The notes: generated from the sequence alone by a model not told the origin. Positions 1 to 26,049 are shown, numbered from the stretch's first letter. The stretch is DNA of 41,129 bases from Vulcanimicrobiota bacterium (GCA_003161555.1 PMOG01000264.1:1-41129); one strand, 5' to 3'. Numbers and translations are program-made.

Positions 1-692
1 GCGGCGACCGCCATGTTGAGCGCCAGCGACGTCTTGCCCATTGCGGGCCGCGCCGCGACGATGATCAAGTTGCCGGGCTGCCAGCCCGCCGTGTAGTCGT
101 CGATGTCGCGGAAGCCGGCCGTGACTCCGGTGCGGTCGCCCTTCTGTTCGTGGCGGCGTTCCAGTTCCTGAAACACGTTGAACAGCAGCGACGGGACCGT
201 GGCGAAGGCATTGTGCTCGCTGCGATTGCCGACTTCGTAGACGACCTGTTCGGCGCGGTCGAGCGCACCGGGAACGTCGTCCTCCGATTCGAACCCGAGC
301 CGCGTCACCAGCGTGCCGGCTCGGATCAACCCGCGCAGGCTGGCCTTCTCGCGCACGATGCGAGCGTAGTATTCCGCCGACGCCGCGGTCGGCACCGTGT
401 CCATCAGCGAGTTGAGGTACGCCATCCCGCCGATCTTGTCGAGCATGCCTTGGTTCTTGAGTTCTTCGGCAAGCGCGACTTTGTCGAGCGGCTGGCCGCG
501 CTCGTAGAGCGCGAAGAGGGCCAGGAAGATCGTCTCGTGCAGCGGCGCGTGAAAGTCGGCCGGCGCAACGATGTCGATCACGGTCGCCATCATCTCTTTG
601 TCGACCAGCACCGAGCCGAGGAGTGCCATCTCCGCCTCGATGTTGTTGGGCGGAATCCGGTCGACGCTGGAAACGAACGGGGCGACGTTCAC
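1..692 (-). CDS. dnaB: Replicative DNA helicase DnaB, N-terminal part through Walker A; truncated by the left window edge
   Basis: Reverse-strand reading from GTG at 692 gives [31 protein letters not shown]...[39 protein letters not shown]. Not in the ORF track because it is open at the edge. GTGA overlap with the upstream protease stop. Confidence 0.93.
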   Translation of the reverse strand, partial: [230 protein letters not shown]

Positions 693-2599
693 CGGGTGAC
701 CTTCGTACGGCGTGTGCGGGGCGGAGGCGGAGCGGGGATGCGGAGATCGAGCGCGGCCAGGGCTTCGACGACGGTCGCGACGACGATCACCTCGATACCC
801 TCTGGTGCCGCCTCGATATCGCGCGCATTCTCGCGCGGGATGACGATCGCCCGCATCCCCGCCTGCCGCGCCGCATAGAGTTTCTCGACCACGCCGCCGA
901 CTCCGCGTACGGCGCCCGCCAGCGACACTTCCCCGGTCACGGCAACGTCTTGCGGCAGCGCAATGCGGTCCAGCGCACTATACAACGCCAGGAAAAACGC
1001 GAGGCCTGCCGACGGGCCGTCGATGTTCCCGCCGCCGACCACGTTGACGTGCAGGTCCCAATCGGCCGGATCGACGCCGGTCACGGCGCGTATGACCGAG
1101 GCGGCATTGAAAACGGCGTCGCGTGCCATCGAACCGGCCGTGTCGTTGAAGCGAACGCTGCCCTTGTGCGTTTCGCGCGCCGGAAATGCGGCGGCTTCGA
1201 TCTCGATGATCGAGCCGACGTACTGCAGCACGCCCAGACCATGCGCCTTGCCGATCACTTTGCGCCGCCGCGCGCGCGCCGGCGTGTGCTGGACGATGCG
1301 GCCGGCCTGGACGACTTCGAGCACGTCTTCCTCGCGCACGCTCGCCGCGCGCTGCGAACCGGCGCGCTCGAGCGCGTGCCCGTAGGCGTCGGCCAGGACC
1401 TGCACCGCCTTGCGGCCCTCGATCGTATACGACGCGATCAGCTCCGGCACGCGCCGCGTCACCTTCGCGCCCAGCCGCTGCGCCGCTTCGCGGACGATGC
1501 GGGCCACCTGCACGTGGGTCAGCGGCTCGAAATAGACCGCGGCGCAGCGCGAGCGGATTGCGGCGTCGATCGCCTCGGGGTCGCGCGTGGTCGCGCCGAT
1601 CAGGACGAAATCCGCCGGCGCGCCGTCGCGGAAGAGCTTCTTCACATAGGCCGGGACGTTCGGATCGTGCTCGTCGTAGTACGACGACTCGAAGCTCACG
1701 CGCTTGTCCTCGAGGACTTTGAGCAGCCGGGTCTGCATCGCCGGATCCATCTCGCCGATCTCGTCGATGAACAGCACGCCCCCGTGGGCTTTGGTGACCA
1801 GGCCCAGCTTGGGCTCGGGAACGCCGCCGTCGGCGAAGTCGCGCCGGGCACCCTGGTAGATCGGATCGTGGACGCTGCCGAGCAGAGGGTTCGTCGTTTC
1901 GCGATTGTCCCAGCGCAGCGTCGGTCCGGCTGCCTCCACGAACGGGGCGTCGGGGGCGAACGGCGCGTGCGCGCGCGACTTCGCGCGTTCGAGCGCCAAG
2001 CGGGCGACCGTCGTTTTCCCGACCCCGGGCGGCCCGTAGAGGATCACGTGCTGGGGGTACGGCGAGGCGAGCTTCGCGATCAGCGCTTTGATCGCGGGCT
2101 CCTGCCCGACGACTTGGCCGAGCGATTTCGGACGCAGTACGTCGAGCGCGGCGCGCGCCAGCCCGCGCCGGTCGAGTGCGGTCAGATCGTGCAGACGCTT
2201 CTCGGTCGCCGGCGTCTCCGGCCCGGTCGCTTCGCGCAACGCTTCGAGCCGCAGCTCGCGCAAGTACTCATTGTGCCGCGCGACCATCTTCGCGCTGACC
2301 TTCGCTTCGAGCTGATCGCCGACGGTGCGTTGGGCGAGCAGGTATGCCAGGCGGTCCTCGATCTCCGCGATGACCTGCTTATACTGCGCCTTCGCGGGGC
2401 GCGTCTCGAGCGTCGGATCCTCGAAGACCAGGCGCTGCAGCGCGAGCAGCCGCTCGGGGATGGCGGACGAGCGCATCTCCTTGAGCGTGCCGAGCTTCCC
2501 CGCCCGCATGACGACCTTTTCGGTCCCCAATGCCTCGCCGAGGACGTCGTAGAGTGCGGCGATCTCGCGGCGAAGTTTCTCGTCCGTGCTTAGGCGCAC
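689..2599 (-). CDS. ATP-dependent Lon-family protease, LonB/LonC type
   Basis: Walker A GPPGVGKT, Walker B VLFIDEIGEMD, C-terminal protease Ser motif GGGNIDGPSAGLAFF and Lys region TGEVSLAGAVRGVGGVVEKLYAAR. Confidence 0.9.
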   Translation of the reverse strand: MRLSTDEKLRREIAALYDVLGEALGTEKVVMRAGKLGTLKEMRSSAIPERLLALQRLVFEDPTLETRPAKAQYKQVIAEIEDRLAYLLAQRTVGDQLEAKVSAKMVARHNEYLRELRLEALREATGPETPATEKRLHDLTALDRRGLARAALDVLRPKSLGQVVGQEPAIKALIAKLASPYPQHVILYGPPGVGKTTVARLALERAKSRAHAPFAPDAPFVEAAGPTLRWDNRETTNPLLGSVHDPIYQGARRDFADGGVPEPKLGLVTKAHGGVLFIDEIGEMDPAMQTRLLKVLEDKRVSFESSYYDEHDPNVPAYVKKLFRDGAPADFVLIGATTRDPEAIDAAIRSRCAAVYFEPLTHVQVARIVREAAQRLGAKVTRRVPELIASYTIEGRKAVQVLADAYGHALERAGSQRAASVREEDVLEVVQAGRIVQHTPARARRRKVIGKAHGLGVLQYVGSIIEIEAAAFPARETHKGSVRFNDTAGSMARDAVFNAASVIRAVTGVDPADWDLHVNVVGGGNIDGPSAGLAFFLALYSALDRIALPQDVAVTGEVSLAGAVRGVGGVVEKLYAARQAGMRAIVIPRENARDIEAAPEGIEVIVVATVVEALAALDLRIPAPPPPRTRRTKVTR

Positions 2600-2600
2600 G

Positions 2601-3050
2601 CTACTTTAGCGCGACGACCTGTACGGCGGACTTCGCAATGACGTTGTTGCCGAGCCGAATCTCGACCGGATACGTCCCCAGCGCCTTGATGCCGTCCTTC
2701 AGCTCGATCTTGTGCCGATCGATGGCTACACCGATCTGCTGGTGCAGAGCGTCGGCGACTTGGGCGTTGGTTACGGTACCGAACAGACGCCCGTTGCCGC
2801 CGGCCTTGGCCATGACCCGGATCGTCGTTTCCTCGAGCTGCGTGGCGACGTCCTGAGCGTTGGCGACCTCTTCGGCCTGTTTGCGCTTCTTCGCGCTCTG
2901 CTGCTGTTCGAGCTGTTTCATCGCGCCGGGCGTCGCGGCAACGGCCAGACGATTGGGCAGCAGGTAGTTATTGGCGTAGCCGTCTTTGACGTCGACGAGC
3001 GTCCCGCGCCCGCCGAGCGGCTTGACATCGCTGGTGAGGATGACCTTCAT
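2601..3050 (-). CDS. rplI: 50S ribosomal protein L9
   Basis: MKVILTSDVKPLGGRGTLVDVKDGYANNYLLPNRLAVAAT is the classic L9 N-terminus; gene order next to rpsR. Confidence 0.97.
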   Translation of the reverse strand: MKVILTSDVKPLGGRGTLVDVKDGYANNYLLPNRLAVAATPGAMKQLEQQQSAKKRKQAEEVANAQDVATQLEETTIRVMAKAGGNGRLFGTVTNAQVADALHQQIGVAIDRHKIELKDGIKALGTYPVEIRLGNNVIAKSAVQVVALK

Positions 3051-3059
3051 GACGGCCTC

Positions 3060-3314
3060 CTACTGAACCACGAACGGCAGCAGCGCGATGATGCGCGCGC
3101 GCTTCACGGCTCGCGTGAGCGCTCGCTGATGCGAGGCGCAATTCCCGGAGATGCGGCGCGGCAGAATCTTCCCGCGTTCGCTGATGTACTTGCGCAGGCG
3201 CGTCGTGTCCTTATAGTCCAGATCGTGCAGTTTTTCGGCGCAGAAATTACAGACTTTGCGCTTGGGGCGGCGATCTTTCTTCGCAGCCGCACGCTTGCTC
3301 TTGGGAGGAGCCAT
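3060..3314 (-). CDS. rpsR: 30S ribosomal protein S18
   Basis: [60 protein letters not shown] is diagnostic of S18. Confidence 0.97.
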
Positions 3315-3348
3315 GTGGGGTAACCTCGTGGTGATGTAGGTGGAAAAT

Positions 3349-3394
3349 GGTCCGGCTGGCGGACCCTACACACGTGGCGTCCGAAGACGCCACG
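3349..3394 (-). promoter_or_regulatory. Candidate rpsR-operon leader structure: two adjacent hairpins
   Basis: 3373-3394 CGTGGCGTC-CGAA-GACGCCACG (minus-strand RNA: 9-bp stem with C(UUCG)G loop) and 3349-3365 GGTCCG-GCTGG-CGGACC. Both are perfect stems upstream of rpsR. Confidence 0.5.
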
Positions 3395-3484
3395 ACCCCG
3401 GACGCTCGAAAAACGGCCGGCGCCGCCCGGAGGCAGCAACGGCTATGGTACCACCTCGGGCTGCCGGTGCCAATCCCCGGCCGG

Positions 3485-4372
3485 ATGCCCGCGCCACGGC
3501 AATCCCTCGCCGGCGGCGAAGGGCGGCGGGTGGACTACCGTAAGAAGTTCGTGGTCGAGCCGGACAGCAAGGTCGACCTGGCCCGCGTCGACCCGAAGTT
3601 TACCGGGAAGCTTTCCAGCGAAGCCGACGCCAAGGCGGAATTGGACGCGCACTGCGAGCGCTTCACGAAACTGCAGTATCTGCTCTATGCCGACGGAACG
3701 CAGTCGCTGCTGGTCGTGCTCCAAGGCATGGACGCCAGCGGCAAAGACGGCACCGTCCGGCACGTGTTCCGCGACATCGACCCCCAAGGTATCACGGTCC
3801 GCTCGTTCAAGGTGCCGACGCCCGAGGAACTCGCGCACGACTTTCTCTGGCGCGTCCACGCTGCCGCACCGCGGCGCGGGTCGGTCGCGATCTTCAATCG
3901 TTCCCACTACGAGGACGTGCTGGTGGCCCGCGTGCACGAGCTCGTGCCCAAAGAGGTCTGGTCGAAGCGCTACGGGCGCATCGTCGACTTCGAGAAGAAC
4001 CTCGTCCAGAGCGACACGCACATCCTAAAGTTCTTCCTCCACATCAGCCCCGAGGAGCAGCTGCGACGATTCAAGCAGCGTCTGGAGGACCCGGCGCGGC
4101 AGTGGAAGATCTCCGAGAGCGACTACACCGAACGCGATTACTGGGACGACTACGTCCGCGCCTACGAAGCGGCGCTCGAGAAGACGAGCACCGAGCGCGC
4201 GCCCTGGTTCATCATCCCCAGCGACCACAAGTGGTTTCGCGATTTGGTCGTGTCGACGATCATCGTGGACACGCTCGAGGACCTGCACATGCGCCTGCCG
4301 CAGCCGCACGTCAACCTCGCCGACATCGCCCGCAAGTATCACGCGGCCGACGCGAAGGGTTCGCTCGGTTAG
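3485..4372 (+). CDS. ppk2: Polyphosphate kinase 2 family protein (PPK2)
   Basis: LVVLQGMDASGKDGTVRHVFRDIDPQGITVRSFKVPTPEELAHDFLWRVH...IAIFNRSHYEDVLVARVHEL-type PPK2 motifs. Start uncertain (ATG 3485 or GTG 3530); the ORF-track start at 3347 is probably too early. Confidence 0.92.
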   Translation: MPAPRQSLAGGEGRRVDYRKKFVVEPDSKVDLARVDPKFTGKLSSEADAKAELDAHCERFTKLQYLLYADGTQSLLVVLQGMDASGKDGTVRHVFRDIDPQGITVRSFKVPTPEELAHDFLWRVHAAAPRRGSVAIFNRSHYEDVLVARVHELVPKEVWSKRYGRIVDFEKNLVQSDTHILKFFLHISPEEQLRRFKQRLEDPARQWKISESDYTERDYWDDYVRAYEAALEKTSTERAPWFIIPSDHKWFRDLVVSTIIVDTLEDLHMRLPQPHVNLADIARKYHAADAKGSLG

Positions 4373-5220
4373 GGGAGGCGCATCGAGCGGCGCACCGCGC
4401 GGTCGCGCAGCGAAGCGGGCAGAACGGCGAGAAGTGCGCCGGCGCGCCCCCGCGCGCCGAGCAAGTAGTTTGCGCGCGGCTTCGATGCCGTCAGCGCGTG
4501 GGCGATCGCGTCGCTGACGAGCTCGACCGGCATCCCGCCGCGCTCCTCACCCTCGGTGGCAGCATAGACGGACTCGATCTGGTCGCCGTACGCGTCGAGC
4601 GCCTCGGGCGGGAGCGCGGCGAGCAGCTCCGCCTTCGAATCGCGGCCCTTCTGCCAAATCGGCGTCTTGACCGAACTCGGCTCGATCAGCGCCACCGCGA
4701 TTCCCGCCTGCCGCAGCTCGATGCGCAGCGCGTCGGCGGCGGCACGCAGCGCGAACTTCGAGGTGCTGTACGGCGCGATGAACGGCACCGCGAGGCGGCC
4801 CGAAATCGAGCCCACGAAGACGATGCGGCCGCGCGCCGGACGCAGCAGCGGCAGAAACGCCTGCGTCACCGCCAACGTGCCGAAAAAGTTGACCTCGAAT
4901 TGCCGGCGCAGCAAGTCCAACGGAAGAAACTCGAGCGGCCCCGCGACCGCGATCCCCGCATTGTTGACGAGTCCCCGCAACGGAACGTTCGCGCCGGCGA
5001 CGGTCGTCGCTGCCGCAGCGACTGACGCCGGGTCGGTGACGTCGAGCCGGAGGCTGCGCACGTTGGGATGCAGGGCCTCTACGCTCGCCGCATCGGCGTC
5101 CGAACGCACCCCCGCAAACACCGCAAAACCGTCGCGGGCGAGACGCTCGGCAGCGGAGGCTCCGATTCCGGTCGATGCGCCGGTGACGACGACGGCGCCG
5201 CGCGAGGCAGCGCTTGTCAT
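4369..5220 (-). CDS. Short-chain dehydrogenase/reductase (SDR)
   Basis: TGASTGIG cofactor motif, NNAGIAVAG, SISG...YSTSKFALR catalytic Ser/Tyr-Lys. Confidence 0.88.
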   Translation of the reverse strand: MTSAASRGAVVVTGASTGIGASAAERLARDGFAVFAGVRSDADAASVEALHPNVRSLRLDVTDPASVAAAATTVAGANVPLRGLVNNAGIAVAGPLEFLPLDLLRRQFEVNFFGTLAVTQAFLPLLRPARGRIVFVGSISGRLAVPFIAPYSTSKFALRAAADALRIELRQAGIAVALIEPSSVKTPIWQKGRDSKAELLAALPPEALDAYGDQIESVYAATEGEERGGMPVELVSDAIAHALTASKPRANYLLGARGRAGALLAVLPASLRDRAVRRSMRLP

Positions 5221-12412: not shown

Positions 12413-13594
12413 GTGGTTACCTCCGAGAATCCGGCCGCCGGCCGTTATCCGATCGCTGCCGTCGCGCTCGCGCTGATGCTGGCCGGGACGCTCTTGCCGA
12501 CGCCGCTCTTCGAACTCTACCGCCACACCTGGAACCTGACGCCGGGCTCGATCAGCCTCGTCTTCGCGGTGTACGCCGCGTCGCTGATTCCGTCGCTGAT
12601 CTTTTTGGGCGGCCTCTCCGACAGCATCGGCCGCCGGCGCACGATCCTGCTGGCGTTTGCGCTCTTGGCGGCGGGATCGCTGATCTTCGCTTTTGCGCAA
12701 GGTCTGGCGTGGCTGATCGCAGCGCGCGTCGTGCAAGGCGTCGGCATGGGACTCGGTACCGGGGCGGCCGCCGCGGCGATTCGCGAATGGATGCCGGACA
12801 ACGCGCGCGCACGCGCCGGGATGGTGACCGTGATCGCGGTCGCCGCGGGCTCCGCGCTGGGCGCGCTCCTGGGCGGCATTCTCGCAGAATATGCGCCTCA
12901 TCCGCTCTCGCTGGCCTACTTCGTCCACGTCGGCTTGGTAGCGGTAGCGGCCGTGGCGGTCGCACGCGTTCCCAAGTGTCCGCACCCGCGTCCGTCGGCG
13001 CATACGGTCATCCCGACGATTCCGGGTCCGATTCGCCGGCCGTTCTTCATCGCGTCGGCGCAGGCGTTCATCGGCTGGGGTTCGTTCGCGATCTTCGTCG
13101 GGCTCGTGCCGGCGTTTCTCGCCAACGTCCTGAATCTCCATAACTTGCTGACCGGCGCCTTCGTCATCACCGGGATTCAAATCGGATCCGTGACGGCATC
13201 GATCTTCGCTCAACGCTTGACGACGCGCCGGGCGATCATTTCGGCGCTGCTGACGCTCGGTGCCGGAATGTGGCTGCTGCTGCTGGGCGTCGCCGTGCAC
13301 GCCTACGTGCTCGTCGGCATCGCGACGCTCGTGACCGGTGCAGGGGGCGGGCTCTCCTACCTGGTCGGACTCAACATCGTGGCGGGCATCTCACCGCCCG
13401 ATCACCGCGGCGAGATGCTCTCGGCCTTCCTCGTCTCCTGCTATCTGGGTTTCAGCGTGCCGGCACTGGCGCTGGGGATTGCCGCGAACGAGTTTGGCCT
13501 TTTCGCCGCGTTCATCGGCGCGGCGATCGTGCTCGGCGCGATCGCGACCACGATCATCGCGCTGACCTCGGAGCGAAACCTGCGCGTCGCCTAG
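12413..13594 (+). CDS. Major facilitator superfamily transporter
   Basis: About 12 hydrophobic segments; GGLSDSIGRRRTILLAF loop, AARVVQGVGMGLGTGAAAAAIREW. Confidence 0.88.
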   Translation: MVTSENPAAGRYPIAAVALALMLAGTLLPTPLFELYRHTWNLTPGSISLVFAVYAASLIPSLIFLGGLSDSIGRRRTILLAFALLAAGSLIFAFAQGLAWLIAARVVQGVGMGLGTGAAAAAIREWMPDNARARAGMVTVIAVAAGSALGALLGGILAEYAPHPLSLAYFVHVGLVAVAAVAVARVPKCPHPRPSAHTVIPTIPGPIRRPFFIASAQAFIGWGSFAIFVGLVPAFLANVLNLHNLLTGAFVITGIQIGSVTASIFAQRLTTRRAIISALLTLGAGMWLLLLGVAVHAYVLVGIATLVTGAGGGLSYLVGLNIVAGISPPDHRGEMLSAFLVSCYLGFSVPALALGIAANEFGLFAAFIGAAIVLGAIATTIIALTSERNLRVA

Positions 13595-13596
13595 CG

Positions 13597-13941
13597 TTAT
13601 TTCCGCCGGTGGAGCACCAGTTTGTTGCCCTCGGTATCTTCGGCAAACGACATGTAGCAGACGGGCGATTCTCCGGGCTCCTCCGCCGTGCCGCCCAGCT
13701 TGCGCACGAGTTCCGCGGCAGCGGGGACGTCGGGCACCGCAAACATGACCATCGTGCCGGCCTGCCACGGAAAGTTTTCGTGCTTGCCGATCGCAAACGC
13801 CGATCCGTCGGCGAACTCAAACTCCGCCCAGGTGCCCGGCATGCTCGTCCCCGGCTCACGCTCGAAAAGCGCGCGATAGAACGCCAGGGCACGATCGAAA
13901 TCCTTCACCGTGTAGACGTGCGTATCGATTCCCGTTACCAC
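13597..13941 (-). CDS. VOC/glyoxalase family protein
   Basis: IDTHVYTVKDFDRALAFYRALF...FAVPDVPAAAELVRKLGG...SFAEDTEGNKLVLHR. Confidence 0.87.
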   Translation of the reverse strand: MVTGIDTHVYTVKDFDRALAFYRALFEREPGTSMPGTWAEFEFADGSAFAIGKHENFPWQAGTMVMFAVPDVPAAAELVRKLGGTAEEPGESPVCYMSFAEDTEGNKLVLHRRK

Positions 13942-16688: not shown

Positions 16689-18617
16689 TTGCTCCATGAC
16701 ATCGGAGATCCGGTCGCGGCCGGCCCCGAGCCGGCGCAGGCGAAGCTCGCCCTGATCCGATCAGCCGGCGTCGCGGCGACGTGCGCCGTCGCTGCTCTCG
16801 CGGCTGCGGTCGCGATGGCCGGCTTTGCGCGCGGCGCGATCGTTCCGGTAGCCACGATTCAGGGAAGCGTTGCAGCTCTCACGTTGACAGCTGCGATAAC
16901 GCCGTTGAGCGCGCCGTTCTGTGCGCTTCTCGCGATCCTAGCAGTGGCCGTGGCCCTGTGGTGCGCGCGCCGAGGCGCGGCGCAGGACCCGCTGCTCATC
17001 GCTGCGTTCACGGCTGCGATGCTGTTGGTGCTTATCGCCCGCAGCGTGGCCCTGTTCTTGTTCGCGTGGGAGGCGATGTCGCTGATTTCGGCCTTCCTGG
17101 TCGCCGCTCATCACGAACGCCGCGGCGTGCGTCGCGCGACTTTTACGTACTTGGTCGTCGCCCAGAGCGGTGCCCTCTGCGTGCTCGTCGCGCTCACCCT
17201 GCTGGCAGTCGCCGCGGGGGGCACGTCGTTTGATGCAATCGCCGCGCACGCGCCGCTCCTGTCACCGGCAGTCCGCGACACCGTCTTCGTTTTCGCACTG
17301 CTCGGCTTCGGTTCGAAAGCGGGCTTGATACCATTGCACTTCTGGCTGCCGCGCGCTCATCCGGTGGCTCCGCCGAGCGCGTCCGCAATGCTCTCCGGCG
17401 CAATGCTCAAAGTCGCCCTGTTCGGGTTGCTCGTCGTGACGCTCGAACTCGCCGCGCCGGGCGCCCCGTGGTGGGGCATCGTGCTGGTCGGGCTCGGCAC
17501 GCTCAGCGCCATCGGCGGCGTCCTGTACGCACTCGTCGATCACGACCTCAAACGGTTGCTCGCCTATCACTCGGTCGAAAACGTCGGCATCATCGTGATC
17601 GGTATCGGCGTCGCTCTCGCGGCACGATCCGGTGGGAACTCGGTGCTCGCGGGCCTGGCGCTGCTCGCGGCGCTCTTCCATACCATCAACCATGGGCTGT
17701 TCAAGGCGCTGCTGTTCTTGGGCGCCGGGGCGGTCAACGACGCGGAGGGTACGGTCGATCTCGAGCGACTGGGTGGTCTCTGGGGCCAGCTCGTGTGGAC
17801 GGCGCCGCTCTTTCTTATCGGATGTGCCGCGATCGTCGGTCTGCCGCCGTTCAACGGTTTTGCCTCGGAGTGGCTGACTTTTCAGAGTCTCATCGGCGGA
17901 ATGGTTGGCAACGGTCTGACCATGACGGTCGCGTTCGTTGCCGCAATCGCAGGCCTGGCGCTCACCGGAGGGCTCGCGGCCGCCTGTTTCGTCAAGGTCT
18001 TCGGCATGGTATTCTTGGGCGGGTCGCGACGCCCCAGCGCACGGGCCGCGGTGCGCGAGCGGCCCGACGCATCGACGATCGGCATGGGATTGCTGGCCGC
18101 TCTCTGCATCCTGTTCGGCGTCGTCCCAGCGCTTGCCGTCGTGCCGCTGGCCGCCGTCGTCGGAGAAACGCTCCACGTGCCGGCACGGATTCCGCCAGCT
18201 CTGCCGGCTTTGCCGCTCACCGTGGCGCTGCTGCCGCTCGCCGGCGCTCTGTTCTGCGTCATGCTTGCGGGCCGCCGCGGCGTGCGCAGCGTGCCGACCT
18301 GGACCTGCGGATCGCCGGTCACTCCGGCCGCGCAGTATACCGCGACGGCATTCTCCAAGCCCCTCCGCACGATCTTCGCCTTCGTGCTGTTCCCGGACCG
18401 TCAGCGTCGATACGAGGTGGGATCGTCGCCTTGGTTCCCGTCGCTGATCTCGTATCGGACCCGCAGCCGCTACATCGTCGATGAGGCGGCGCGAGGCTTT
18501 GCGGCGGCGGTCCTGCGGTTCGCACGCGGTTCACGTCTGGTCCAAAGCGGCAGTTTGCGGCTCTATGTCGCCTATGCCGTCGCCGCGCTGATCGTCACGG
18601 TCGCGCTCGCGCGGTGA
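16689..18617 (+). CDS. hyfB: Hydrogenase-4 subunit HyfB-like antiporter protein (NuoL/M/N family)
   Basis: FAWEAMSLISAFLVAAHH, GFGSKAGLIPLHFWLPRAHPVAPPSASAMLSG, YALVDHDLKRLLAYHSVENVGII, FHTINHGLFKALLFLGAGAV. Start (TTG) uncertain. Confidence 0.9.
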   Translation: MLHDIGDPVAAGPEPAQAKLALIRSAGVAATCAVAALAAAVAMAGFARGAIVPVATIQGSVAALTLTAAITPLSAPFCALLAILAVAVALWCARRGAAQDPLLIAAFTAAMLLVLIARSVALFLFAWEAMSLISAFLVAAHHERRGVRRATFTYLVVAQSGALCVLVALTLLAVAAGGTSFDAIAAHAPLLSPAVRDTVFVFALLGFGSKAGLIPLHFWLPRAHPVAPPSASAMLSGAMLKVALFGLLVVTLELAAPGAPWWGIVLVGLGTLSAIGGVLYALVDHDLKRLLAYHSVENVGIIVIGIGVALAARSGGNSVLAGLALLAALFHTINHGLFKALLFLGAGAVNDAEGTVDLERLGGLWGQLVWTAPLFLIGCAAIVGLPPFNGFASEWLTFQSLIGGMVGNGLTMTVAFVAAIAGLALTGGLAAACFVKVFGMVFLGGSRRPSARAAVRERPDASTIGMGLLAALCILFGVVPALAVVPLAAVVGETLHVPARIPPALPALPLTVALLPLAGALFCVMLAGRRGVRSVPTWTCGSPVTPAAQYTATAFSKPLRTIFAFVLFPDRQRRYEVGSSPWFPSLISYRTRSRYIVDEAARGFAAAVLRFARGSRLVQSGSLRLYVAYAVAALIVTVALAR

Positions 18618-19489
18618 TCCTGCTCGCTCAGGTCCTGGCGATCGCCGGGCTCGCGCCCTTGGTGCAGGGCGTGATGAAGCGGCTGCGGGCAAACCTCCAA
18701 GGCCGCCCCGGCCCGTCACCGCTGCAGCCGTATCGCGATCTGGCAAAGCTCGCTAACAAGGAAGTGCTGCTTCCCAACGGCGTCTCGCCGATTCCGTTGA
18801 TCGCGCCCGGTATCGCTCTCGGCGTCGCCGTGACGTTCGCAGCGCTCCTGCCGATCGTCGTGCCGAATGCACTCGGCAGCATCGTCGACATCATCGCATT
18901 AGTGTTCCTCCTGGGCCTCGGCCGTTTCGTCCTGACGCTGGCAGCACTCGATAGCCGAAGCGCCTTCGCCGGGATGGCGGCCAGTCGCGAGATGACCTTC
19001 GGCAGCCTCGTCGAGCCGGCACTGCTCTTGGCGCTCCTCGGGGGAGCCGTCGTCGGCAAGGGGACGCACCTCTGGTCCGTGATGGACGTGCCCTTCGGCC
19101 TCGCCGGAACGCTGGCGTTCGCGGCGTTTTTCTTGGTGCTGCTCGCCGAGACCGCACGCGTTCCGATCGACAACCAGGAGACGCACTACGAACTCACGAT
19201 GATTCACGAAGGGCTGGTCCTGGAGTACTCGGGCTGGCAGCTGGCGATGCTGCAGCTGGCCGGTTTCATTCGTCAGCTTTGCTTCTTCGTGCTGGCGTCG
19301 ATGCTGCTTCCCGGCGGCGCCGAGGGCTGGCGCCACCTGCCGTGGGTCCTCGCCATCATCTGTATGGTCCCCGCGGTCGAAACACTTTTCGCGAAGCTCA
19401 GGCTGTTCGAAGTCCCGCAACTCTTCGCGACCGCGCTCATCTTGGCCGCGACCAGCATCGGATTGCGCGTGTTCGGCGTGCTCGTATGA
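18614..19489 (+). CDS. hyfC: Hydrogenase-4 subunit HyfC/HycD-like (NuoH family)
   Basis: LVQGVMKRLRANLQGRPGPSPLQPYRDLAKLANKE; ETARVPIDNQETHYELTMIHEGLVLEYSGWQLAML. GTGA overlap with hyfB. Confidence 0.92.
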   Translation: MILLAQVLAIAGLAPLVQGVMKRLRANLQGRPGPSPLQPYRDLAKLANKEVLLPNGVSPIPLIAPGIALGVAVTFAALLPIVVPNALGSIVDIIALVFLLGLGRFVLTLAALDSRSAFAGMAASREMTFGSLVEPALLLALLGGAVVGKGTHLWSVMDVPFGLAGTLAFAAFFLVLLAETARVPIDNQETHYELTMIHEGLVLEYSGWQLAMLQLAGFIRQLCFFVLASMLLPGGAEGWRHLPWVLAIICMVPAVETLFAKLRLFEVPQLFATALILAATSIGLRVFGVLV

Positions 19490-20097
19490 CGACGAGCCTG
19501 ATCGTTCTCGTTGCGGGTGCCGTCCTGATCCTCAGTGGGCGTGCCGTCGGGGTGTTGATCGCTTACGTCGTGCTCGCCCTGATGGTGGCCGCGCTCGGCG
19601 CAGGCGCGGCCCTCGCGTCGCCCGCAACCTTTGCGCTGTTCGGCGTTGCAACGCTGCTCAAGGTTGTACTTGCACCGCTCGCGATCGGACTGTTCGTGCG
19701 CGTCAATCCGGCCGCCGAGGATTTGCGGCCGTCGGTTCCCGTGCCGGTGCGTCTCTTGCTCGTGATCGCTTTTGCGCTGGCGGCCGAATTGGCGTCCGGT
19801 ATGGCGGCGCTCGCGGCGGTGCCGATGCTGAACCTGGTTGCGTTCATCGTCTTGTGCGGCGTCGGCATGCTCATCGTCCACCGAAACCTGCTCGCGCACA
19901 TGATCGGCTTGCTCGTGCTCGGAATCGGGATCGGGTTCGCCGGTTCGATGCTGGCTCCGGGGCTGCCTGAGCCGATCGAGCTTGGCACCGCCTTCGACGC
20001 GCTGGTCGCAACCTTCATCGGCCTTGCACTCGTGAGGGCAATCATCGTGCACGATCCTCTGCTCGATGTCGAGTCGCTACGGAGACTCCGCGGATGA
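19486..20097 (+). CDS. hyfE: Hydrogenase-4 subunit HyfE-like membrane protein
   Basis: Polytopic 203-aa protein with HyfE-like C-terminus (GTAFDALVATFIGLALVRAIIVHDPLLDVESLRRLRG). Start moved from ORF 19279 to the ATGA overlap at 19486. Confidence 0.85.
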   Translation: MTTSLIVLVAGAVLILSGRAVGVLIAYVVLALMVAALGAGAALASPATFALFGVATLLKVVLAPLAIGLFVRVNPAAEDLRPSVPVPVRLLLVIAFALAAELASGMAALAAVPMLNLVAFIVLCGVGMLIVHRNLLAHMIGLLVLGIGIGFAGSMLAPGLPEPIELGTAFDALVATFIGLALVRAIIVHDPLLDVESLRRLRG

Positions 20098-21512
20098 TCG
20101 CCTGGGTTGTCGCCGCGCCGCTGCTCGCGGCGATCGTAACGACGGCGTTTCCCGACCTTCGCACGCGGCGGCTCGTGCGCGTCTTCCTTGCCGCGGTCGC
20201 GGCCGTGCTGCCGCTCTCGGTCGCCGGATCGATCGGCTGGTTGTCGCTTACGTTTACCGTCATCGTCTCGGCACTCAGCTTTCTTGCGACCGTCTTCTCC
20301 ACCGGGACGTTCGCACCCGAGTGGGGGGGCAGCGAGACAATCTGGTCTCGAAAGTCGGTGTACTTCGTGCTGCTCGGCGCGTTCTGGAGCGCGATGCTGC
20401 TGGTCGTGCTGGCACAGAACTTCGCCGCACTCTGGCTCGGCATCTCGGCCACGACGCTCGCGACCGCCTTCCTGGTGGGGTTCAGCGGCGAGGCGGCAGC
20501 CCTCGAGGCGGCTTGGAAGTATCTCGTGCTCTGCAGTGTCGGGATCGGTTTTGCGCTGCTCGGGATCGTCGTTTTAGCGCACGTCACCATCGCCGGCGGG
20601 ATCGATTCGCGGCTGGCGTTGTCGTGGACGGCGATCGTGGGTCACGGCTTTGGGGCGCCTCCACCGGCGGCGCGGTTGGCGACGGTCCTCATGCTGATCG
20701 GCTTTGCCACCAAAGCGGGGTTGGTTCCGATGCACGCGTGGCTCCCGGACGCCCATTCCAAGGCGCCAGCACCGATCAGCGCACTGCTCTCGGGGGTCCT
20801 CGTCTCGTGCGCACTCTATGCGATCGTGCGCACGCTCGAGGTCGGTTCGGCCTTGGGTGCGTCGTGGCTTCTTCACGAGATCCTCGTCTGGCTCGGCGCG
20901 GCATCGACAATCGTCGCCGGTGCGCTCATGCTCGCTCAACGTGATCTGAAACGCATGCTGGCGTACTCAACGGTCGAGCACGCCGGAATCGTCGCGCTCG
21001 CCCTCGGCTTCGGTGGGTCGTTGGGCTTTCTGGCGGCGCTCCTGCACATCATCGGCCATGCCTTTGCGAAGTCTGCCGCATTCTTCGCCGCCGGAATGCT
21101 GCAGAACGACTTCGGAACGACGACCATGGCGAAGCTGCGCGGCCTCTGGGGGCGGGGTGGTTCGGGCCGGTTTTTGCTGGCGGCGCTCATCGCGCTCGCA
21201 GGCATGCCGCCGTTTGGACTCTTCGTCAGCGAGCTGCTGTTCGTTTTCGCGGGAGTCGCCGCGCATCAATGGGCTCCCTTGGGGCTGGGTCTCATCGGCA
21301 TCGTGCTCGGGTTTGCCGCCATATCGCGGAATGCGATCGAAATCGAATCGGGAACCTCTGCCGTGCCGCGGCTCGCGGGCCGCCTCCCGACGGTGGCAAG
21401 GGGAACGATCGCCGTTGCCTTGAGCGGCGCGCTCATCGTCGCCGTCATCCCCTGGACTGCGCTGGGTGCATCACTGCAAGGCATCGCCGTCGCAATGGAC
21501 GCCGCGCCGTGA
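20094..21512 (+). CDS. hyfF: Hydrogenase-4 subunit HyfF-like antiporter protein
   Basis: IGFATKAGLVPMHAWLPDAHSKAPAPISALLSGVLVSCALYAIVRT; MLAQRDLKRMLAYSTVEHAGIVALALGFGG. ATGA overlap. Confidence 0.92.
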   Translation: MIAWVVAAPLLAAIVTTAFPDLRTRRLVRVFLAAVAAVLPLSVAGSIGWLSLTFTVIVSALSFLATVFSTGTFAPEWGGSETIWSRKSVYFVLLGAFWSAMLLVVLAQNFAALWLGISATTLATAFLVGFSGEAAALEAAWKYLVLCSVGIGFALLGIVVLAHVTIAGGIDSRLALSWTAIVGHGFGAPPPAARLATVLMLIGFATKAGLVPMHAWLPDAHSKAPAPISALLSGVLVSCALYAIVRTLEVGSALGASWLLHEILVWLGAASTIVAGALMLAQRDLKRMLAYSTVEHAGIVALALGFGGSLGFLAALLHIIGHAFAKSAAFFAAGMLQNDFGTTTMAKLRGLWGRGGSGRFLLAALIALAGMPPFGLFVSELLFVFAGVAAHQWAPLGLGLIGIVLGFAAISRNAIEIESGTSAVPRLAGRLPTVARGTIAVALSGALIVAVIPWTALGASLQGIAVAMDAAP

Positions 21513-22912
21513 GGGCCGCCCTGCGCGGCCGCGACCTGATCGAATTCGAGCGCCGCATCCGCGCCGAATGCGAAAGCGGCGTCCCGCTTGGCGCCTACGC
21601 CTCGTCGCACGGCGTCCATTATGTTTTCCTTGGGGAGCGCGGTGCTTTTTCGCTCGAGCGCCCGCACGCTGAGGATCGCGCGGCGTCGGCTTTCTCCACA
21701 GCGTTTCCGGGATTCTCCTGGGACGAGCGGGAGATGCGCGACGCGTGGGACGTGCGCTTCGCCGACCTTCCCGATCCGCGTCCCCTGGGGTCGAACGGAG
21801 GCAGCATGCCCGCGGCGGTCGTTGCGACCGGCGCCGGCCTCATGCACATGGTCGTCGGTCCCGTGCACGCCGGGATCATCGAACCCGGGCGTTTTACGTT
21901 CAGCTCGGGCGGCGAAACGGTCGTGCATCTCGACGCCCAGCTCGCGTATTCACACCGCGGCGTCGAGCAGCACCTCGTCGCGAGGGATCCGCTCGCCGCC
22001 GCGCCCTACCTGGCTCGCGTCTGCGGCAGCTGCAGCGCTTCACGCTCTCTCGCCTACGCGCAAGCGCTCGAGCAGCTCGCCGGCACCGCTATCGATTTCC
22101 GCGTCGAGCTCGTGCGGCTGGTCGTCGCCGAACTCGAACGGATCTACAACCATCTCGCCGATCTGGCCGCTTCTGCCGCCGGCGCCGGTTGGGGGCCCGG
22201 CTTCGCCCGAGGGATGGCGCTCAAGGAACGCGCCATGCGTGCGTGTCAACGTGCAACCGGCCACCGCCTGCTCTTCGATGCGATCGTTCCCGGCGGTGTC
22301 GCGCCGCAGACGCTGCTCGAGCCCGGAGAACTTCGGAGGTCGCTTCAAGCGCTGCAGAGCTCCGTCGAACGCTACCTCGAGTCGCTCTTTGGGAATCCAT
22401 CGGTCGTTGCCCGCTGGGAGCGCGCGGGGGCCGTTTCCCGCAAGGCTGCTCGCGCATTCGGCGCAGTTGGGCCCACGCATCGCGCCTCCGGCGGGAAGAT
22501 CGACGTGCGGGCCTTTGCTCCGTACGGCGCATATCGCCGGATTCGCACCTCGGTCGCGTCGGCCTCAACCGGAGACGCCTTTGCGCGCTGCGCCATCAAG
22601 CGCGATGAATTGCGCGAGTCGTTTCGCCTGATCGGCGCGGCATTGGCGAACGTTGGCGATGCCCGTCCGAAGGCAGCGGCGACGATGCGCGTGGAACCGG
22701 GCGCCGCGACCGGCGTTGTCGAGGGCCCGCGCGGTGCGGAGATCGTCGCGGTGCACGTAGACGAAACCGGACGTCTGAGCCGCGTGCACGTCATCTCGGC
22801 CTCCTATCGCAACTGGCCGCTCGTCGCCCGCGCGATGGATGGCAACATCGTTCCGGATTTTCCACTGGTGAACAAAAGCTTCAACCTGTGTTATGCGTGT
22901 GCCGATCGATGA
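21509..22912 (+). CDS. hyfG: Hydrogenase-4/FHL-type large subunit HyfG/HycE-like, with N-terminal NuoC-like domain
   Basis: N-terminal FPGFSWDEREMRDAWDVRFADLPDPRPL (NuoC-like), L1 ARVCGSCSASRSLAYAQALE, EGPRGAEIVAVHVD, L2 C-terminus NKSFNLCYACADR-stop. GTG start at 21509 overlaps the hyfF stop. Confidence 0.9.
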   Translation: MRAALRGRDLIEFERRIRAECESGVPLGAYASSHGVHYVFLGERGAFSLERPHAEDRAASAFSTAFPGFSWDEREMRDAWDVRFADLPDPRPLGSNGGSMPAAVVATGAGLMHMVVGPVHAGIIEPGRFTFSSGGETVVHLDAQLAYSHRGVEQHLVARDPLAAAPYLARVCGSCSASRSLAYAQALEQLAGTAIDFRVELVRLVVAELERIYNHLADLAASAAGAGWGPGFARGMALKERAMRACQRATGHRLLFDAIVPGGVAPQTLLEPGELRRSLQALQSSVERYLESLFGNPSVVARWERAGAVSRKAARAFGAVGPTHRASGGKIDVRAFAPYGAYRRIRTSVASASTGDAFARCAIKRDELRESFRLIGAALANVGDARPKAAATMRVEPGAATGVVEGPRGAEIVAVHVDETGRLSRVHVISASYRNWPLVARAMDGNIVPDFPLVNKSFNLCYACADR

Positions 22913-23394
22913 TGAAGCCGAGTTTTCGTGGATCGCTCGGTATTCGCCACCTCGTGTGCGGAAGCTGCAATGGCTGCGAGCACGAGATGAACGCGTTGAA
23001 CAACGCCTACTACGATATCACGCGGGACGGCTGGGATATCGTCGCCTCACCCCGACACGCCGATGTCATCACCGTCACCGGTCCGATGACCGGGGCGATG
23101 CGAGCACCGGCGGATCAGACCGTTGAAGCCGTCCCGCGCCCGCGAGTCGTCGTGGCTGTCGGCGACTGTGCCGCCGGCGTCGGTCCTTGGGCCGGTGCCC
23201 CCGAGGCCGGCGAGGGAGCCGGGGTTGTACTGAACGCGAGCGTCTTCGTCTATGGCTGCCCGCCGACGCCGGATGCAATCCGTTCCGGGCTCGAGGCAGC
23301 CGCCGAGCTTCTCTCGCGCGAGGACGTTTCGGAAGCGAGCGTGAGTCCCGCGCGCATCGGTGTCGCCGTGTGGTCCGCACCGGTCGACGACTGA
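22909..23394 (+). CDS. hyfI: Hydrogenase small subunit HyfI/NuoB-like
   Basis: HLVCGSCNGCEHEMNAL, HADVITVTGPMTGAM, VVVAVGDCA, VYGCPPTPDAI: all four proximal [4Fe-4S] ligand Cys. ATGATGA overlap with hyfG stop. Confidence 0.9.
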   Translation: MMKPSFRGSLGIRHLVCGSCNGCEHEMNALNNAYYDITRDGWDIVASPRHADVITVTGPMTGAMRAPADQTVEAVPRPRVVVAVGDCAAGVGPWAGAPEAGEGAGVVLNASVFVYGCPPTPDAIRSGLEAAAELLSREDVSEASVSPARIGVAVWSAPVDD

Positions 23395-24051: not shown

Positions 24052-24603
24052 TCAAGCCTCGCGCATCAGCGGCAAGGCGTCGATCCACGCCAGGACCGTG
24101 CGCTCGTAACGAATGCCGAATTCGAGCGCGAGCGCCGGATAGGCAGCCTCGGCACGCGCTTGGGGCAGTTGCGCCTCGTAGGTCGCAAGCCGCTCGGCAT
24201 GGAGGCGGCGGTGTACGATGCAGACGTCGCGCAGCTTCTCCGGCGGAACCGCATCCCCGAAAAAGACCGTCAACAGCAACGGAAACCGGATCTGCTCGGG
24301 TCCGGGCATCCGCGCGATCCACGCCGCGAAGGTTTGCCGCCCGAGCGGCGTGATCGTGCACGAGCGCCGGTCGCGCACGCCCGAAGCACCCATCTCGATC
24401 AGGCCGCGCTCCGCGAGCGCGCGCAGTTCGCGATAGACCTGGCTGCGCGTGATGCTCCAAAAATTGCCGATCGTGTCCTCGAACGTGGCGTAGAGCTCCC
24501 AGCCCGTCATCGGCCGGCCGGAGAGCAAGCCAAGCAGCGAGGCCGCAGTCGCGTTCAGGTCACTTGACAGTCCAATGTGGTCTATTGTAGGCTCGGATGA
24601 CAT
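24052..24603 (-). CDS. PadR family transcriptional regulator
   Basis: ATAASLLGLLSGRPMTGWELYATFEDTIGNFWSITRSQVYRELRALAERGLIEMGASGVRDRRSCTITPLGRQTFAAWI winged-helix signature. Confidence 0.9.
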   Translation of the reverse strand: MSSEPTIDHIGLSSDLNATAASLLGLLSGRPMTGWELYATFEDTIGNFWSITRSQVYRELRALAERGLIEMGASGVRDRRSCTITPLGRQTFAAWIARMPGPEQIRFPLLLTVFFGDAVPPEKLRDVCIVHRRLHAERLATYEAQLPQARAEAAYPALALEFGIRYERTVLAWIDALPLMREA

Positions 24604-24612
24604 TCTACATTG
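24564..24612. promoter_or_regulatory. Candidate PadR operator / carotenoid oxygenase promoter region
   Basis: AT-rich island with inverted repeat CAATGTGG (24573-24580) ... CTACATTG (24605-24612), 7 of 8 matched, and TTGACA at 24564-24569 on the + strand. Confidence 0.4.
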
Positions 24613-24627
24613 TTATGTGAGGGCGTC

Positions 24628-26049
24628 ATGCAAACCACCTTGGGCGCGCCGGTCGCCGCGTATCATCTCGGATTCACCAGCCTGGATCGCGAGCTCAGCG
24701 TCGACGCGCTTCCCGTCAGCGGCACGCTTCCGCCGTGGCTCTCAGGGTCGCTGCTGCGCAACGGGCCGGCGCGGTTCGAAGTCGGCGCTGACCGCTACCA
24801 CCACTGGTTCGACGGATTGGCGATGCTGCACCGGTTCACGGTCGCGGACGGACGCGTCTCGTATGCCAACCGGTTCCTACGCTCGCCGGCGTTCGTCGAG
24901 GCTGAGCGGCTGCATCGCATCGCGTACGCGGAATTCGGGACCACCCCGCATCGCTCACCGCTCGGCCGCGTCGCGGCGTTGTTCCGGCCGGCCACCGGCG
25001 ACAACGCCAACGTCAACGTCGTGCCGTACGCCGACGGATACTTGGCACTGACCGAAACGCCGAATCCCGTCGCCGTCGACGGCGTAAGCCTGGAAACCCG
25101 CGGCGTTCTGCACTACGACGACGCCGTTGCGGGTCAGATCACCACCGCCCACACCCACCACGACCGCAGCCGTCGCGCCACCTTCAACATCCTCATCGAA
25201 CTCGGGCGCACCTGCACGTACAAGGTCGTCCGCATCGAAGACGGGACGCTTCGGCGTACCGTGATTGCCGAGCTCGCGGTTGACGAGGCCGCGTATATGC
25301 ACGCGTTCGCGACGACCGCGCGCTACGTGATCATCGCGGAGTACCCGCTCGTGGTCCGGCCGCTCGACCTGCTGCTGCAGCGCAAGCCCTTCATCGAAAA
25401 CTACCGCTGGGTCCCCGGCCGCGGGACGCGCTTCCACGTCTTCCACAAGGACGGCGGCGCCGCCGCCGGCAGCTTCGAGGGGGACGCCTTCTTCGCGTTC
25501 CATCACATCAACGCGTTCGAGGAAGGTGACGCCATCGTGCTCGACATCGCGGCCTATGACGACGCGCGCATCATCGGCGACTTCGCCCTAGATCGCGTGC
25601 GCGATCCGCACAGCGAAGTCGCGTGGCCGGCGTTCCGGCGCTTCCGGCTCGTTCCCGGCCACAGCGCCGCGGAGATCGAAAGCCTCGCACCGCAAACGAT
25701 CGAGCTGCCGCGCGTTGCCGGCCGGCATGAGGCAACGGCCTACCGTTACGCGTACGGCGTCGATACGGATGGCTCATGTGGGATCTACAATCGGCTCGTA
25801 AAAGTCGATTTGACCGAACGCAGCACCGTCGCGTGGACGGCACCGCGCGCCTATCCGGGCGAGCCCGTGTTCGTCGCGCGGCCGGGCGGTTCCGACGAGG
25901 ACGACGGCGTTGTCCTCTCCGTTGTGCTCGACGCCGAGGCCGCGGCATCGTACCTGGTCGTGCTCGACGCGCGCGACTTCACCGAACTCGCGCGGGTCCA
26001 CGTGCCGCACCACATCCCGTTCGGATTCCACGGCACATTCAGCAGTTAG
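24628..26049 (+). CDS. Carotenoid oxygenase family protein (RPE65/BCO-type)
   Basis: LPPWLSGSLLRNGPARFEVGADRYHHWFDGLAMLHRFTV...AYMHAFATTARYVIIAEYPLV...FAFHHINAFEEGDAIVLDIAAYDD...HIPFGFHGTF. Start refined to ATG 24628. Confidence 0.93.
   Translation: MQTTLGAPVAAYHLGFTSLDRELSVDALPVSGTLPPWLSGSLLRNGPARFEVGADRYHHWFDGLAMLHRFTVADGRVSYANRFLRSPAFVEAERLHRIAYAEFGTTPHRSPLGRVAALFRPATGDNANVNVVPYADGYLALTETPNPVAVDGVSLETRGVLHYDDAVAGQITTAHTHHDRSRRATFNILIELGRTCTYKVVRIEDGTLRRTVIAELAVDEAAYMHAFATTARYVIIAEYPLVVRPLDLLLQRKPFIENYRWVPGRGTRFHVFHKDGGAAAGSFEGDAFFAFHHINAFEEGDAIVLDIAAYDDARIIGDFALDRVRDPHSEVAWPAFRRFRLVPGHSAAEIESLAPQTIELPRVAGRHEATAYRYAYGVDTDGSCGIYNRLVKVDLTERSTVAWTAPRAYPGEPVFVARPGGSDEDDGVVLSVVLDAEAAASYLVVLDARDFTELARVHVPHHIPFGFHGTFSS

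Follow-up and report, generated by a model that had tools for sequence, protein, structure and literature searches.

The window analyzed here is an entire 41-kb contig of a 2.93-Mb MAG (73.5% complete) from a soil bacterium of Ca. Eremiobacterota (WPS-2). It carries a Hyf-type operon, hyfB-C-E-F-G-I, at positions 16689-23394 of the plus strand (Table 1). An ORF check found the six reading frames to be tightly packed, with neighboring genes overlapping or abutting by a few bases, as expected for a single operon. Profile searches against Pfam and NCBIfam back the family identities of all six ORFs; the NuoK-like region of HyfE scores under the Pfam cut-off (1.3e-4), and the HyfE model of NCBIfam provides its match. 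An earlier note on this DNA had recognized the six ORFs, their order and their subunit families, and three of its start positions are corrected here: HyfE from 19279 to an ATG at 19486, HyfG from 21269 to a GTG at 21509, and HyfI from 22888 to an ATG at 22909/22912.

Table 1. Genes of the Hyf-type operon and a nearby gene pair in the window
Feature	Position	Strand	Assignment	Evidence and remarks
hyfB	16689..18617	+	NuoL/HyfB antiporter-like subunit	PF00361 7.5e-44; PRK06521 hydrogenase 4 subunit B 2.5e-153
hyfC	18614..19489	+	NuoH/HycD-like subunit	PF00146 8.9e-35; 4-base overlap with hyfB
hyfE	19486..20097	+	HyfE/NuoK-like small membrane subunit	PRK11492 hydrogenase 4 membrane subunit 1.1e-6; ATGA overlap with hyfC
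hyfF	20094..21512	+	Second antiporter-like subunit	PF00361 1.9e-49; hydrogenase 4 subunit F 7.1e-90
hyfG	21509..22912	+	HycE/NuoCD-like large subunit	phmmer best match 7z0s_E (E. coli HycE) 1.6e-46
hyfI	22912..23394	+	NuoB/HycG-like small subunit, 160 aa	PF01058 2.3e-22; best PDB match 6cfw_J 3.4e-24
PadR regulator / carotenoid oxygenase	24052..26049		Divergent gene pair	Same pair near the related operon in L046

Within the window we saw no HyfA, HyfD, HyfH or HyfJ, no NuoE/F/G/I, no formate dehydrogenase gene and no hyp genes, in line with the earlier description of a locus that lacks HyfA/D/H, formate dehydrogenase and maturation genes. The complex is also not accompanied by the polyferredoxin subunit (HyfH/HycF type) expected of a group 4 hydrogenase. 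Targeted family searches for a donor across the genome returned a single HyfH-like match, weak and partial, on contig C185, where it adjoins a partial NuoG-like molybdopterin match on the same strand. We infer that this match is NuoI, and beyond it no separate HyfH, the presence of which the earlier note had said would, along with a hyp operon, point to an ordinary complex, was found elsewhere in the genome. NuoI-like and other nuo-like genes occur on other contigs. Formate dehydrogenase was considered as a partner and set aside, as molybdopterin-family matches occur in 38 of 38 genomes, with or without the complex, and so do not discriminate.

Conserved neighbors were sought by clustering the flanking ORFs of related loci, with 58 named loci compared. 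The FAH, PanE and exported-protein genes of the window are not conserved beside the operon in these 58 loci, which bears out the earlier claim that the flanks hold no obvious donor. The only flanking genes shared with the window are those of the PadR and carotenoid oxygenase pair, found near the complex in L046, and the only widely recurring neighbor of the complex is a gene for an ArsR-type regulator.

The large subunit retains the hallmarks of a [NiFe] active site. HyfG residues C172/C175/C461/C464 align with the Ni-ligand cysteines C241/C244/C531/C534 of HycE, so that all four cysteines of the L1 and L2 motifs of group 4 [NiFe] hydrogenases are present, and R and E residues near them are also kept. 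An AF2 model of HyfG (pLDDT 92.5) has HycE of the E. coli formate hydrogenlyase (7z0s_E) as its best Foldseek match (TMq 0.90), and the nearest characterized relatives by both sequence and fold are HycE and MbhL. The HyfG motif CGxC occupies the position of the quinone-site ‘DY’ of NuoD, which distinguishes the protein from its complex I counterpart. HyfI keeps four proximal-cluster cysteines and has no ferredoxin (HycF/HyfH-like) domain. All eight cysteines, four in each protein, are invariant in 28 of 28 sequences of the Eremiobacterota subclade. Two features depart from E. coli: the L2 motif is NLCYAC instead of DPCYSC, with NLC in place of DPC, and HyfG has its stop codon right at the mature C-terminus (...CYACADR-stop), with nothing corresponding to the 32-residue extension of E. 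coli HycE and HyfG.

Maturation proteins are mostly missing from the genomes that encode this site. Their absence was judged by three families, HypD, HypF and HypA, none of which was found in the window's own genome at its stated completeness; the hyp operon whose presence elsewhere in the genome would, by the earlier note, have marked a normal complex is thus not seen there. HypD is absent from 10 of the 13 relatives holding a close HyfG orthologue and from 41 of the 48 genomes with a four-cysteine HyfG (present in 7/48). By group, the HypD-less genomes comprise 26/32 Eremiobacterota, 12/12 of the Melainabacteria type, 3/3 Eisenbacteria and 0/1 for the L062 genome; among the further four-cysteine genomes, HypD was found in 3/18 Eremiobacterota, 0/12 of the Melainabacteria type, 0/3 Eisenbacteria, and the L062 genome. 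The HypF search among relatives agrees with that for HypD, as does HypA in the subset of genomes searched. Ten relatives have the complex with neither HypD nor HypF, and of these seven have a completeness of 95-98% and one of 91%. In the Hyp-positive relatives G028 and G029, the hyp genes adjoin another NiFe large subunit, which has a DPCxxC motif.

The Hyp proteins that accompany group 4 [NiFe] hydrogenases are therefore not found in the window's genome or in most relatives with the complex. As one report describes the Hyp proteins as necessary for NiFe(CN)2CO assembly (PMC12134894), the standard cofactor is improbable in Hyp-less members. The absence of HypD from 41 of 48 genomes, together with a stop at the mature C-terminus, likewise makes a normal NiFe(CN)2CO site in these members unlikely. 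The four Ni-ligand and four proximal-cluster cysteines are nonetheless kept in 28 of 28 Eremiobacterota sequences, although most genomes with a four-cysteine HyfG have no HypD, which is a new observation. The earlier note had assigned both subunit types correctly but had overlooked that the four Ni ligands persist in mostly Hyp-less genomes.

The gene order B-C-E-F-G-I is found again in most Eremiobacterota loci of sufficient length and, in more divergent form, in Melainabacteria, Eisenbacteria and Proteobacteria, where HyfE is mostly too divergent for tblastn and was inferred from the gap. On a Rhizobium plasmid, the existing annotation places exactly this set of six behind the gene for an HTH regulator. 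Such recurrence across groups is not a matter of chance. In a tree of 68 large subunits, the complex forms a clade of 58 rows (SH-aLRT 100) that is sister to E. coli Hyc/Hyf, and the Eremiobacterota type forms one subclade within it (SH-aLRT 100). The tree also separates HyfG of the window from NuoD; it is a quick tree with SH-aLRT support only, in which L101, L103 and L123 are long branches of unsure exact placement. The phylogeny that the earlier note had asked for thus puts HyfG in a clade of its own beside Hyc/Hyf, not inside them or another well-characterized group 4 clade. Compared with E. coli hydrogenases-3 and -4 (group 4a), the nearest characterized clade, the window has homologous B, C, E, F, G and I subunits and the same four-cysteine motif, but it lacks the HyfA, D, H and J subunits, hyp genes and HyfG extension and has a different L2 motif, as described above. 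Ehr complexes are likewise complex-I-like, with unknown function, and are defined by absent Ni/Fe-coordinating residues (PMC6349859, PMC10284858), whereas the complex in the window keeps its four cysteines.

An ArsR-type gene lies directly upstream of the complex in 26 loci (25 by motif and L049 by clustering) of Eremiobacterota and Melainabacteria. Two of these regulators were searched against the PDB, and the best match of both was Rv0081 of Mycobacterium tuberculosis (E 4.5e-17 and 2.2e-14). In the M. tuberculosis hyc locus, Rv0081-Rv0087, we take Rv0082 and Rv0083 to be HycG- and HyfB-like subunits, and the gene order is presumably permuted relative to that of the window's operon. According to its gene list, this locus, a ‘putative formate hydrogenlyase’, has the same six-subunit set, and Rv0081 is the regulator of Rv0082-Rv0087 (PMC6901956). 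The gene list and the PDB matches together uphold the kinship with Rv0082-Rv0087 that the earlier note had pointed to. The window shares with this locus a single cluster limited to B, C, E, F, G and I, but, in contrast to M. tuberculosis, no ArsR gene was found upstream of its operon or of those of its nearest relatives (L036-L039).

Across the clade, the redox ligands vary far more than the ion path. Large and small subunits each have four ligand cysteines in the Eremiobacterota type. The Melainabacteria keep the four large-subunit cysteines and have lost the small-subunit cluster ligands; in Melainabacteria-type L063, L065, L066, L068, L071-L074, L077, L079 and L083, these are replaced by NAEEAE, GDG and GDPP/GNPP. 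The reverse is seen in Paraburkholderia, Cupriavidus, Rhizobium and other Proteobacteria, as well as in L103, L115-L117 and L123, in which the large-subunit NiFe cysteines are lost and the small-subunit ligands are kept. Both sets are lost in L108-L114 of the fluoride subclade, in Mycobacterium branderi L101 and in Meiothermus L102. A HycF-like ferredoxin domain fused to HyfI is intact in L103 and L123 and degenerate in L101 and L108-L114. The redox ligands are thus dispensable within the clade.

The ion-path residues hardly vary in any group, even in those that have lost the redox ligands: Glu of TM5, Lys of TM7, His, Lys and Glu of TM12 in HyfB, the Lys/His/Glu set of HyfF, and most acidic residues of HyfC. 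In the window, HyfB has the TM5 Glu, TM7 Lys, His/Lys and TM12 Glu, and by alignment HyfC has acidic residues at all of the NuoH E157, D213, E216, E220 and E228 positions. There are three exceptions. The NuoH E216 position is variable outside the Eremiobacterota and Melainabacteria types, most of the fluoride group has Glu at the D213 position, and the TM5 Glu of HyfF is lost in 27 of 27 readable Eremiobacterota-type sequences. This last residue is Ser in the window and Ser, Thr or Ala across the Eremiobacterota type, in contrast to Glu in other clade members, and this antiporter-like unit may be impaired. That the clade loses its redox ligands in every combination while nearly all ion-path residues are conserved is, with the retention of the eight cysteines, the second new observation.

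Several Eremiobacterota genomes have another, cysteine-poor form of the complex, sometimes alongside the type in the window. A fluoride riboswitch (RF01734) precedes the first gene on the operon strand in nine loci (L108-L116), at a distance of ~60-160 bases in seven and ~600 bases in L108 and L111 as judged from tblastn boundaries; several of these matches are below the Rfam cut-off, and that of L116 comes from a model built here (E 0.0005). This model, made from 21 riboswitches, has matches in 2 of 67 sources, both of them fluoride-type loci (L116 and L117). The plasmid-borne loci of B. cenocepacia (L103) and M. branderi (L101) are each part of an island that has several fluoride riboswitches and CrcB, pyrophosphatase or enolase genes, and the M. 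branderi copy groups with the fluoride subclade in the tree. DUF190-annotated genes occur beside the complex in these islands (L101, 14698-15777; L103, 4940-5308).

A ‘formate hydrogen lyase’ is listed among fluoride-riboswitch genes in the literature (PMC2864571, PMC11139923), with fermentation as the interpretation in one review (PMC11139923). It belongs to the same clade as the complex in the window, and its Eremiobacterota, M. branderi and B. cenocepacia examples make up the fluoride subclade. Riboswitch control, loss of the NiFe cysteines and, mostly, loss of the cluster ligands set it apart from the window's type, which has no riboswitch. Because their ligands are lost, the fluoride-subclade copies analyzed here would not be expected to work as hydrogenases. 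A fluoride link was also considered for the window's type and dropped, with 0 Rfam matches in the window.

From the anatomy of the complex, its phylogeny and the absence of Hyp proteins, we tentatively favor a six-subunit Hyf-type ion-translocating complex that would be neither a hydrogenase nor a formate hydrogenlyase, and for which ion transport, a Hyp-independent center and donor-free working are predictions. Ligand loss in every combination with retention of the ion path makes this family more likely an ion mover than a hydrogen maker, and the clade's electron path is best read as discarded, not merely overlooked. We hypothesize that the four-cysteine site of HyfG holds either a metal that needs no Hyp proteins or a dithiol pair in place of NiFe(CN)2CO, and that the G-I arm mainly serves the membrane module of B, C, E and F as a scaffold and as a regulatory or redox sensor. 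This module might move H+, or exchange H+ for another cation, when the cell is stressed by acid, low oxygen or the like. Its driving force would not be electrons fed in by a dedicated donor, and this would account for the lack of a conserved donor module. Three findings argue against such a complex: the eight cysteines invariant in the window's subclade, which imply some cofactor chemistry there and are the strongest counter-argument, the intact ferredoxin-like domain fused to HyfI in L103 and L123, and the lost TM5 Glu of HyfF.

Because these eight cysteines are invariant, we keep a redox-driven pump as a near-equal, only slightly less probable rival. A soluble ferredoxin- or flavodoxin-like donor would dock at an exposed proximal [4Fe-4S] cluster of HyfI, electrons would move on to the four-cysteine site, where a substrate or metal would take them up, and the resulting energy would power ion pumping. 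The fold match of HyfG to HycE is consistent with this mechanism, as is the short HyfI, whose cluster may be exposed for want of a HycF-like domain. It fits less well with the Melainabacteria, where no proximal cluster feeds the four-cysteine site, with the lack of any widely conserved neighbor other than the ArsR gene, and with clade members that have the same ion path without redox ligands. The electron partner of unknown identity proposed in the earlier note is less well supported for the same reason, as the proximal cluster, the NiFe cysteines or both are gone from relatives in which the ion path is kept, and it survives in the form of this rival.

Other accounts are much less probable. 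The arm might borrow complex I parts (NuoI, or NuoEFG with NuoI) and so become part of a hybrid complex driven by NADH or ferredoxin, an arrangement suggested by the nuo-like genes on other contigs and by the homology of HyfI to NuoB; we consider it improbable, since those genes are not co-localized with the operon and the arrangement would not work in relatives that lack FeS ligands. A genuine group 4 [NiFe] hydrogenase or formate hydrogenlyase, with parts encoded elsewhere or lost from the assembly, is slightly less probable still. Its nearest characterized relatives and its four Ni ligands with the nearby R and E residues speak for it, but eight of the ten relatives lacking both HypD and HypF are 91-98% complete, HyfG has no C-terminal extension and has NLC for DPC, the one HyfH-like protein is read as NuoI, and the window has no formate dehydrogenase gene. 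Least credible is a hydrogenase operon in decay, since none of the six genes is broken, key residues hardly vary across the clade and the operon is retained in many genera, even though maturation genes and donor subunits are gone, the TM5 Glu of HyfF is lost and the relative G029 has a broken second HyfG copy.

In the complex I superfamily, energy conversion is taken to be driven by redox reactions, and a clade with stepwise loss of redox ligands and an intact ion path would offer a direct test of whether the membrane module works alone. A broader proposal, which we regard as doubtful, is that every member of the clade, the M. tuberculosis hyc locus and the fluoride-riboswitch ‘formate hydrogenlyases’ among them, is an ex-hydrogenase turned donor-free ion transporter, a complex-I-family machine without redox coupling. 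The window's type would then be an intermediate that has every ligand and a new, Hyp-independent four-cysteine center. The annotation of the hyc locus, with its hypoxia regulator Rv0081, as a formate hydrogenlyase may be wrong, as may that of the fluoride-riboswitch ‘formate hydrogen lyase’, which the review cited above read as fermentation (PMC11139923). The retention of a four-cysteine hydrogenase site without Hyp proteins is a bioinorganic question in its own right.

Additional copies of parts of the complex were seen in two related loci. L042 has a further, divergent set of B, C, E and F (153-4709, minus strand) head to head with an intact operon, with the ArsR gene between them, and L049 (G029:C19) has a second, broken partial HyfG copy at 13053-13847, ~2 kb downstream of an intact operon.
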